From the NCBI GenBank assembly GCA_000223315.2, contig AFUS01000004.1, forward strand, positions 186,001-250,000: DNA of 64,000 bases. Reading direction: 5' to 3'. The notes beneath the pieces were generated by a model that was given only the letters and a program-made list of their open reading frames with translations, did no database searches and was not told the DNA's origin. Shown here piece after piece: positions 59,253-61,452 of the stretch. This DNA is from Parvimonas sp. oral taxon 393 str. F0440 (lineage in GTDB: Bacteria; Bacillota; Clostridia; Tissierellales; Peptoniphilaceae). The position numbers and the translations under genes are program-made. Numbering within the stretch: position 1 is the stretch's first letter; each line of letters begins with the position of its first letter.

Positions 59253-60208
59253 ATGAGAGATATTAAAGTTAATATAAATGATTCTGGGCAAAGAATTGAC
59301 AGATTTTTAAAAAAATATTTGAATAATGCAAGTACTTCTATGATTCAAAAATTTTTGAGAACAAAAAAGATAAAAGTTAATAGAAAAAAGGTTGATTCAA
59401 GTTATATTTTAGCTTTAAATGATGTAATCAATATTTTTATTTATGAAGAAGAACTGGAAAAACTGATTGTTTCAAAGTCAAAGAAATATTCATATTCTAA
59501 AAAACTTGATATTGTTTATGAAGATGAAAATATTATTGTTATGAATAAACCTAAAAATTTATTATCCCATGCATCATCTAAAGAAGATTATGGAAATAAT
59601 TTGGTGGATTTTATGATTGGATATTTACTTGAAAAGGGAGATTATAATCCAAGAGCTGAAAAGACTTTTGTTCCTGCAATAATTAACAGATTGGATAGAA
59701 ATACTTCAGGGCTTGTTATAGGAGCAAAAAATTCAAAGGCGCTTAGAGAGTTAAATAGATTAAAAGAAAATTCAATAGAAAAATATTATAAGACTATTGT
59801 AAGTGGAAAAGTTAAGAAAAATTTTGTAATTAATGAAAAGATTGAAAAAGACGAAGAAAAAAATAAATCTACTATTTCTAAAAACGGTAAAGACTCTATA
59901 ACAGAAATTTATGTAGAAAAAATAATGATGAATTTAGCCTACTAAAAATAAAACTTATAACCGGAAGAACACATCAGATTAGAAGTCATTTAAGCAGTAA
60001 GGGTTTTTATATTATTGGAGATATTAAATATGGAAATGCAGAAGTTAATAAGTTTTTTAGAGATAATTTTGATTTAAGAAGCCAATTTTTACATGCTGAA
60101 ACAATAATTTTTAGAAATATTGATGGGGATTTAAGTTATCTTAATGATAAAGAATTTTTTGCTCCTATGGATGAAATTTATAAAAATATAATCAGAAAAA
60201 TATTTTGA
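59253..60208 (+). CDS. RluC/RluD-type pseudouridine synthase (one apparent frameshift)
   Basis: An RNA pseudouridine synthase of the RluA/RluC family. An N-terminal S4 domain (GQRIDRFLKKYLNNASTSMI, KKIKVNRKKVDSSYIL) is followed by the catalytic domain with INRLDRNTSGLVIGAK, where the first Asp after RL is the catalytic residue. The frame breaks in the A6 run at 59917-59922; one extra A joins TEIYVEK to NNDEFSLLKIKLITGRTHQIRSHL and runs to TGA 60206-60208, giving about 318 residues, the normal length. The rRNA site cannot be assigned by eye. Confidence 0.9.
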
Positions 60209-60230: not shown

Positions 60231-60272
60231 AGTGGGTATATTTTTCCTATCAGAACGTTAGGAGAGATGATT

Positions 60273-60557
60273 ATGAAAATTATAATTGATGAAAAAGCAA
60301 AGAATTTTTTAAACAAAAAAAGCAACAGTGTTATCACTGTTGATGTTAAAGGTTGTAGTTCCTGAAGTGGAATTGTTTTAAAACCAATGGCTTCATTAGG
60401 TAAACCTTTAAATGTAGATAAGTACACATTAGAAAATATAGATGGAATTGATGTGTATCTTATGAACGGTATAAAAGCAGTCAATGATACTGTTACTGTT
60501 TCAACTATAAGTTTTCTTTTTATGGAAAATTTAGTAGTTAATGGAATAATTGTTTAA
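60273..60557 (+). CDS. Putative small selenoprotein 1 (CC/Se motif type), in-frame UGA at codon 31
   Basis: A 94-residue protein if UGA 60363-60365 is read as selenocysteine. ATG 60273 has TAGGAGAG upstream. The N-terminus MKIIIDEKAKNFLNKKSNSV and the following VTVDVKGCSS-U-SGIVLKP resemble the IscA/HesB core, where a GCSG loop follows a similar strand; the motif here is C28-S-S-U31. After the UGA the frame continues for 63 codons with good helical/strand pattern to TAA 60555-60557. A stem-loop (60383-60401, ACCAATG/CATT-A-GGT with loop GCUU) starts its loop 24 bases after the UGA, a position expected for a bacterial SECIS. Other genes here use TGA as stop, so the code is standard. Confidence 0.75.
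60383..60401 (+). promoter_or_regulatory. Candidate SECIS element of selenoprotein 1
   Basis: ACCAATG (60383-60389), loop GCTT (60390-60393), CATTAGGT (60394-60401) with one bulged A. A G opens the loop, as in known bacterial SECIS elements, and 24 bases separate it from the UGA. Confidence 0.55.
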
Positions 60558-60583
60558 AAAGACTGTTAATTCAGTCTTTTTTG
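60557..60583 (+). terminator. Terminator-like hairpin between the two UGA genes
   Basis: AAAAGACTG, TTAATT loop, CAGTCTTTT and further T. The SD of the second gene follows within four bases of its end, so transcription of the second gene seems to need read-through or anti-termination. Confidence 0.8.
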
Positions 60584-60598
60584 TTTGGAGGGATTTTT

Positions 60599-60874
60599 AT
60601 TAAAGTTGTTATAAATAATAATGCAAAAAAACTTTTAAAAGAAAATCAAAGAGATATAATGGTTGAACTAAAAGGTTGGAGTAACTGAAATTGTTCAACT
60701 GAATTAAAACCGTCGGTTTCGATTGGTATACCAAAAAATACAAATGCTTTTGACTTTTTTGAGGTTGATGAATATAATGTATATGTAAGTAGAAAGATTT
60801 CTGAAGATGCATTTGTTGAAATATCTTCAGCAAATTTTTATGGTTTAGAATATTTAATAGCGATTATAAAATAA
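60599..60874 (+). CDS. Putative small selenoprotein 2, ATT start and in-frame UGA at codon 30
   Basis: A paralogue of the preceding gene, 91 residues if UGA 60686-60688 is selenocysteine. No ATG, GTG or TTG fits: GGAGG at 60587-60591 is seven bases before ATT 60599, and the ATT aligns with Met1 of the first protein (IKVVINNNAKKLLKEN against MKIIIDEKAKNFLNKK). The motif is KGWSN-U-NCSTELKPS, against KGCSS-U-SGIVLKPM, so the Cys three before U has become Trp and a Cys follows two after U. Downstream KPSVSIGIPKN and VYVSRKISEDAFVEISSANF match the first protein. A stem-loop lies 23 bases after the UGA. The upstream in-frame TTG 60581 lies before the SD. Confidence 0.72.
60702..60724 (+). promoter_or_regulatory. 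Candidate SECIS element of selenoprotein 2
   Basis: AATT-A-AAACC (60702-60711), loop GTC (60712-60714), GGTTT-C-GATT (60715-60724): a 5-bp upper and 4-bp lower stem around an A-C mismatch. The loop begins with G 23 bases after the UGA, within one base of the spacing in the first gene although the primary sequences differ. Confidence 0.6.
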
Positions 60875-60913
60875 TTATTATGTATGACCAATTTTAGAGA
60901 TAAGGGTGATAAT

Positions 60914-61452
60914 ATGGCTAAAGATTTTAAATTGATTAAACCTACAATGGAATATGAAAAAGAAATACAAAATTTTAGAGAAGAATTTATAATAAATGGT
61001 GGAGATATGGATGGCTGTCTATCTTTAAGAAGAATGGAAAATATTTCTGACTGGATAAAACAGGTTGAAGATTTTTCCTCAGAAGATACCTGTCCAAAAG
61101 AATATGTTCCACAAACTCAGTTCATCTTTATCAGAGAAGAAGATAATAAAATAATAGGTGTTATTCAAATAAGACATTATCTAAACGAATTTTTTGAAAA
61201 ATATGGTGGTCATATCGGATATTCAGTATGTCATTCTGAAAGAAAAAAGGTTATGCAACTCTGATGTTAAAGGAAATTCTGCCTATTTGTAAAGTAATGG
61301 GATTTAAAAAAATATTAATAACCTGTTTAAAAGAAAATGAAGCGAGTAAAAGAGTAATCATAAACAATGGAGGTATTTATGAATCTACCGTTTATGAGCC
61401 AAAAGATAAAGTTTATTTAGAGAGATATTGGATAGATTTGTCTGAAAAATAA
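60914..61452 (+). CDS. GNAT-family N-acetyltransferase (one apparent frameshift)
   Basis: A GCN5-related acetyltransferase using acetyl-CoA; the acceptor is unknown. The N-terminal part includes RRMENISDWIKQVED, VPQTQFIFIREEDNKIIGVI and HIGYSVCHSERK. The frame breaks in the A6 run 61243-61248; one extra A yields GYATLMLKEILPICKVMGF, the acetyl-CoA-binding motif A region, followed by ILITCLKENEASKRVIINNG (motif B) and the ending YLERYWIDLSEK. About 179 residues in total. The start is ATG 60914 with AAGGGTGAT upstream; ATG 60884 lacks an SD. Confidence 0.87.

Follow-up and report, generated by a model that had tools for sequence, protein, structure and literature searches.

The 64,000-nucleotide stretch of Parvimonas DNA analysed here (the window) contains two small co-directional genes, A and B, each carrying a single in-frame UGA codon. 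Both are, with very high confidence, selenoproteins of the CC/Se motif family, an assignment well supported by sequence comparison, and readthrough of the two UGAs is likewise supported. As the best overall explanation we propose that A and B are a selenocysteine (Sec)-decoded CC/Se pair of IscA-type fold acting as small redox proteins, a reading that we regard as probable. The UGA codons would be read through by the resident SelA/SelB/SelC/SelD machinery with the aid of hairpins located just downstream. Parvimonas is a genus known for human oral anaerobes, and gene B is apparently kept under selection in it.

Genes A and B and the CC/Se motif family

The host genome consists of five contigs (1.48 Mb, 89.7% complete). 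Gene A (60273–60557, plus strand; 94 aa) starts with an ATG at 60273, which is located 8 nt 3' of the Shine-Dalgarno-like sequence AGGAG (60260–60264, plus strand; by sequence reading), and ends with a TAA at 60557. Its in-frame UGA (60363–60365, plus strand) falls within the motif GCSSUSG. Gene B (60599–60874, plus strand; 91 aa) ends with a TAA at 60874 and carries its UGA (60686–60688, plus strand) in the motif KGWSNUNC; a Shine-Dalgarno-like GGAGGG precedes it (60587–60592, plus strand; by sequence reading). Family score, alignment, dN/dS and tree agree in marking B as a diverged CC/Se paralogue. The first-pass annotation, made from the letters of this DNA, had described two tandem frames with one UGA each and paralogous translations on both sides of it, and this is what BLASTP detects: A and B are identical at 28 of 91 residues (E 2e-11) in an alignment spanning the UGA.

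Between the genes lies a hairpin of 10 bp, terminated by a run of U (60556–60581, plus strand; dG -10.7, z -3.2), which is terminator-like in appearance and was not called by the terminator scan. Its region was also folded for loci L117 and L118; similar sequence occurs in five of six Parvimonas genomes and is absent in the most diverged one, G103. B may therefore be partly cut off from the transcript of A. Within the coding sequence of A (60323–60342) there is a perfect 8-bp palindromic hairpin, which the scan lists as terminator-like on the minus strand. Upstream of the pair, an RluA-type pseudouridine synthase gene (59253 to about 60209) changes frame near 59940; since L117 and L118 carry unbroken copies of 318 aa, the break is put down to a recent mutation or to an error in the sequence. 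Directly 3' of B, an acetyltransferase-like gene (60884–61452; recognized by eye) is split across two frames, and the ORF lists for L117 and L118 show no such gene behind B.

With UGA read as Cys, A and B score 59.3 and 45.3 bits against the NCBIfam model NF041239 of the CC/Se family (cut-off 40 bits), so that the suggestion of CC/Se-motif proteins in the first-pass annotation was right for both genes. When the genome was searched in six frames with this model, A reached 52.5 bits, above the cut-off, and B 38.6, just below it. A thus adds a member to a known family, and B is a variant distinguished by its start codon and a lost CxxU. That annotation would miss both genes, as had also been expected, is not supported for A, whose family is in NCBIfam; for B it is plausible. 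Neither protein matched Pfam, or the HesB-like selenoprotein model TIGR01911 at E≤10, bearing in mind that most matches beyond an E of about 0.1 are discarded by the HMMER filters. In the accessible part of a 2026 review (PMC13188914), the CC/Se family is listed as predicted, with a CxxU motif and one Sec, separately from HesB-like TIGR01911, and that part gives no function, fold or partner for it.

Gene A has CSSU, i.e. CxxU, in all six Parvimonas genomes. CxxU does not occur in gene B, which has WxxUxC in five genomes (WSNUNC in four, WNNUNC in one) and QVSUDV in G103, where both the W and the second Cys are missing. The Cys two residues after Sec, proposed earlier as the partner in B, is thus not strictly conserved, and Sec is the sole redox residue of the B motif retained in all six genomes. 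Departures from CxxU are also found in other CC/Se subclasses.

The family is widespread, with a match in 123 of 249 genomes of the order, in 90 of the 398 genomes of the phylum sample and in none of 14 controls. The loci examined, which are part of the matches of the 249-genome search, yielded 107 family ORFs representing 101 distinct segments. Homologues with Cys or Sec at the motif, which the first-pass annotation had named as a check, were found: 79 of these segments are U-type and 22 Cys-type. The Cys homologues run straight through the UGA position, the U position moves by 1–2 residues between subclasses, and adjacent Cys-Sec or Sec-Cys is found in many members. Parvimonas is not alone in having tandem copies: both copies carry UGA in genomes G219, G609 and G286, one UGA and one Cys copy are present in G293, and Gemella haemolysans (L129:4475–5159), which possesses selB, encodes two UGA copies (QQSCUGGG and QQFCUGGR) behind an FtsX-type permease gene.

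A further group of CC/Se relatives, observed in 11 loci of 10 genomes (L152–L162), carries two consecutive UGA codons in the motif HGUUNAFYAPSG and similar ones. All 11 examined loci with two UGAs have them side by side. Only one of the 11 exceeds the NF041239 cut-off; the rest score 23–39 bits.

Decoding of the UGA codons

Orthologues of A and B, with one UGA each, are present in 6/6 Parvimonas genomes. The sequence after the UGA is under constraint, as anticipated in the first-pass annotation: across the five closer genomes, Nei-Gojobori counts gave dN/dS ratios of 0.281 (A) and 0.147 (B) after the UGA and of 0.18 (A) and 0.25 (B) before it, the figure for B being calculated without G103. 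For A in all six genomes, the ratios were 0.22 before and 0.39 after the UGA. The counts for B amounted to 142.5 synonymous versus 106.5 nonsynonymous differences, summed over ten genome pairs. Together with the covariation of the stems described below, these data argue for the paired selenoproteins postulated earlier.

A search of the host genome for selA, selB, selC and selD, proposed as a check, retrieved all four. The tRNA-Sec (selC) scores 70.7 bits (Rfam cut-off 47) and selB 360.5 bits (cut-off 242.25). The genes selD, selA and selB are contiguous on contig C1 (25657–26583, 26722–28080 and 28118–29995, respectively), which is a different contig from that carrying A and B. selA and a selD gene with its own UGA are found in all six Parvimonas genomes. 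In the taxonomic family, at least 20 genomes have a UGA-bearing member, and all of them are among the 48 of 130 genomes with selB above the cut-off (Fisher 1e-10); among the matches listed, selB is present in 10 of 46 genomes with UGA-free members only.

Hairpins follow both UGAs. The SECIS-like hairpin of A (60383–60401, plus strand; ACCAAU-GGCUUC-AUUAGGU) starts 17 nt after the UGA, and its loop, GGCUUC, begins at base 24. In B (60709–60727, plus strand; ACCGUC-GGUUUC-GAUUGGU), the hairpin starts 20 nt after the UGA and the loop, GGUUUC, at base 27. The loop starts given in the first-pass annotation, 24 and 23 bases, are hence correct for A and wrong for B; the shift of 3 nt between the genes matches a one-residue insertion in B. 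In eight distinct Parvimonas versions, 97.9% of the cells pair in the stem, where pairs are exchanged among U-A, A-U and C-G and between C-G and U-A. None of 500 shuffles attained the covariation score, which did not exceed 0.036 when the structure was slid along the alignment. The structure was derived from the same sequences, and two of five measures did not rise above shuffles, namely pairs changed on both sides (2 versus 1.3 expected; reached by 189/500 shuffles) and further pair types (4 versus 3.9 expected; reached by 351/500).

RNA folding was another check suggested at the outset. The hairpins after both UGAs covary; the post-UGA regions of the window, folded singly, are not significant (z -0.03 to 0.68). 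Compared to synonymous shuffles, the A hairpin shows no extra stability in five of six genomes (z -0.37 to 0.56), the exception being G103 (z -2.24), while the B hairpin is weakly more stable (z -0.62 to -2.09); in B of G101 and G104 the best local prediction is a different hairpin. The loop-motif test was passed by 6/6 A genes and 4/6 B genes, B of G104 and of G103 failing. Family-wide, 36 of the 79 UGA members form a hairpin whose loop fits [AG]G[UC]U, where synonymous shuffles predict 5.2; for the 22 Cys members the corresponding figures are 2 and 1.4. Mean z of the fold against synonymous shuffles is -1.15 for the 79 UGA and -0.25 for the 22 Cys members (Mann-Whitney 4e-4), and such p values serve as guides, as the family sequences are related and not independent. 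Parvimonas selD, taken as control, has a strong predicted post-UGA hairpin with no G heading the loop, and thus the loop rule is not universal here. Rfam returned eight matches up to E 5 between 60200 and 60900 (best E 0.13), none of which attained the gathering score and which we judged to be chance.

Predicted fold, cystine symporters and possible roles

For each of A and B, a single small domain of the IscA/SufA-type fold is predicted. The AlphaFold model of A, with Cys in place of Sec, has a pLDDT of 85.3 and a pTM of 0.73. Its ten best Foldseek chains are six of IscA/SufA, one putative Fe-S biosynthesis protein, and YneR, AQ_1857 and HI1723, the last three of which we take to be HesB-type (best match E 1.4e-3, probability 1.00). 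A second aligner gave Z 8.3 for A against IscA 1x0g, with ten such entries at Z 4.8–8.3 and the first unrelated row at Z 2.1. The model of B (pLDDT 91.2, pTM 0.80) gave seven top Foldseek chains of the IscA/SufA/HesB kind (best E 5.3e-3). No Foldseek match of A or B reached E 0.001. An hhalign comparison with the IscA/SufA/ErpA profile, based on small alignments (19 and 3 rows), gave a probability of 1.2% and hence no sign of homology in sequence, and the C-terminal CGC, part of the three-cysteine set of A-type carriers, is absent from both proteins. Without profile kinship and CGC tail, A and B are IscA-like in predicted shape, and a carrier role is putative. The original guess of IscA/HesB-like proteins thus survives at the level of the predicted fold, but not as a match to TIGR01911.

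In the models, Cys-x-x-Sec (A), or Sec with varying partners (B), would lie at the turn between two long strands. A and B would most likely be small selenol/thiol redox proteins reducing low-mass disulfides, and our best guess for the family is the reduction of disulfides or diselenides, a role that would extend to A and B. A clue to the substrate comes from relatives. In 15 of 34 genomes of the order that encode a TcyP-like symporter, belonging to three families, a UGA-bearing family member is located directly downstream of the transporter gene (loci L120–L123, L127, L128 and L078 among them). The 34 genomes are what remained of 41 among 249 once seven with weaker matches (≤38% identity) had been dropped before counting, and one linked record, L122, is by its title a Clostridium sp. 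MAG and may lie outside the order. Gaps between transporter and family gene are 4–40 bases, as measured between match ends and not from stop to start codon. The linked genes, all 15 of which carry UGA, form a sister subclass with the motif GC[SA][STE]U, in most cases continuing as EPQP or EPNP; of the genes with GC[SA][STE]U and then E, 15 of 16 stand behind the transporter (read off the table). A family member exists in at least 25 of the 34 genomes, and G183 has one more whose position is not listed. The flanks of other loci often comprise only 500 bases, and absence of a transporter there carries no weight.

Two linked transporters that were scanned belong to PF00375 (SDF-family), and one linked transporter shares 45% identity with E. 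coli TcyP and 24% with GltP. E. coli TcyP is annotated as cystine/sulfocysteine:cation symporter, and in C. jejuni a transporter of the TcyP type takes up cystine as well as its toxic analogue selenocystine, according to the accessible part of PMC8015009. G103 combines the transporter arrangement with genes A and B. In the other five Parvimonas genomes, including the 89.7% complete host genome, no TcyP-like gene was detected at E≤1e-60, and hence the cystine clue derives from relatives rather than from A and B. The link was not seen in the phylum sample, in which 18 of 398 genomes have the transporter and one of these a non-adjacent family member. Within the order, adjacency to TcyP suggests that thiol/selenol redox chemistry assists the uptake of disulfides. 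As the sister subclass is encoded behind TcyP-type symporters, cystine (or selenocystine) would be the leading substrate candidate, although we put forward a cystine-type redox role for A and B only tentatively.

The same fold would also suit carrier proteins whose cargo is selenium, a metal or an Fe-S precursor, held at the Cys/Sec loop as ligand site and passed between A and B. Apart from the predicted IscA/SufA resemblance, this is suggested by the Cys of A's GCSS, which appears by eye to lie where IscA has GCSG, by the adjacent Cys-Sec or Sec-Cys of many family members, and by neighbouring genes, i.e. one upstream of the transporter in L123 and others near the locus in L120 and L128, which by eye we presume to be ferritin-like and superoxide-dismutase-like, respectively. 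Yet the missing CGC tail is the source of two of IscA's three cysteines, and no constant Fe-S or metal neighbour is seen in 15 family loci whose neighbouring genes were listed and in part scanned. We therefore consider carriers unlikely. Less probable still is that A and B handle selenium derived from selenocystine, trapping or reducing it and passing it on towards SelD. Import of selenocystine by the C. jejuni transporter (PMC8015009, accessible part) and the presence of the sister subclass behind such transporters, with UGA in all 15 linked genes, would agree with this idea; Cys-only members are, however, common (22 of 101 distinct sequences), and in the host genome selDAB is on a separate contig from A and B.

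Returning to small redox proteins as the preferred reading, B may be a partner or a specialised version of A. Such a partnership is doubtful, and a heteromer, as imagined in the first-pass annotation, is putative.

The start codon of gene B and relation to known systems

At its natural start, gene B has no ATG, GTG or TTG in any of the six Parvimonas genomes. The position of A's Met is occupied by AUU, or in one of the six genomes by AUA, 6–8 nt 3' of the Shine-Dalgarno-like stretch, and this AUU/AUA is quite probably the start codon in all six. An in-frame TTG further upstream (5/6 genomes) lies 5' of the Shine-Dalgarno, and a GTG overlapping the latter occurs in five of six genomes and is missing from the window. 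By comparison, 91 of 95 other family genes were scored as having ATG, GTG or TTG at the aligned start or a few codons away from it, the ends of the remaining four being unclear. One of the 91, the UGA-bearing family gene of locus L089 (genome G161), has ATA at the aligned start and, just before it, a UGA that separates this codon from the gene's GTG, which leaves its start unclear; a non-standard start is therefore nearly, perhaps not wholly, confined to B.

In a tree of 41 hand-picked rows, all six B proteins group together on a long branch (support 100/98), separate from the A clade (96/91), indicating a duplication older than the sampled Parvimonas species. B would accordingly be described as an old tandem duplicate that has since diverged, with a probably small output from its AUU/AUA start. 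The lack of a usual start codon at the natural start in all six genomes, the long branch and the lost CxxU could alternatively mean that B is a decaying, untranslated duplicate, but this is very unlikely in view of the dN/dS of 0.147 after the UGA, the absence of TAA or TAG within the frame in all six genomes and the retained Shine-Dalgarno-like sequence and covarying hairpin. That the UGAs are ordinary stops, with downstream frames arising by chance or from internal starts such as the in-frame ATG at 60387 behind A's UGA, can practically be dismissed, considering that no ORF of at least 50 aa with a usual start is listed after B's UGA, that constraint acts on both sides of the UGA, that Cys homologues are continuous and that selB is present in all of the at least 20 family genomes with UGA genes.

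B is probably a selenoprotein that ordinary pipelines would miss on account of its unusual start and UGA. As a proposal, the AUU/AUA start and the UGA read as Sec would gate the output of B by start-codon discrimination and selenium supply; if true, B would be a natural case of both controls in one gene. The full picture, in which a doubly gated B would join A in an IscA-fold pair for disulfides or diselenides from a lineage serving cystine importers, is speculative and on balance unlikely to hold in every part. For the CC/Se family, whose function was hitherto unlisted, the analysis adds a predicted IscA/HesB-like fold and, in part of its range, a TcyP-type partner, and hence a testable role.

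Neither the Parvimonas pair nor the TcyP link nor the double-UGA group was described among the literature matches listed, or in the accessible parts of PMC13188914, PMC1794560, PMC9312934 and PMC8015009; searches for consecutive UGA and for selenoprotein, cystine transporter and Moorella found none.

Among known systems, the A-type carriers IscA/SufA/ErpA (HesB fold) share the predicted fold with A and B, but the CGC tail is theirs, whereas Sec in the loop is a feature of A and B. The gene infC has an AUU start codon. In Streptomyces, the rare start codon GTC of sigR is repressed by IF3 (PMC5472188, accessible part). B would use a start codon of a kind comparable to these IF3-controlled genes; unlike them it adds a recoded UGA, and control of B by IF3 is putative. 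The HesB-like TIGR01911 protein is likewise a selenoprotein, but has a UxGP motif according to the accessible part of PMC13188914, and A and B do not match it. The double-UGA group differs from the CC/Se family as given there in having two UGAs instead of one Sec. Closest is the CC/Se family NF041239 itself, represented by a hypothetical protein predicted in Moorella thermoacetica (per the portion of the source available): A shares with it an above-cut-off score and CxxU, whereas B stands apart by WxxUxC, an apparent AUU/AUA start and its tandem arrangement with A.
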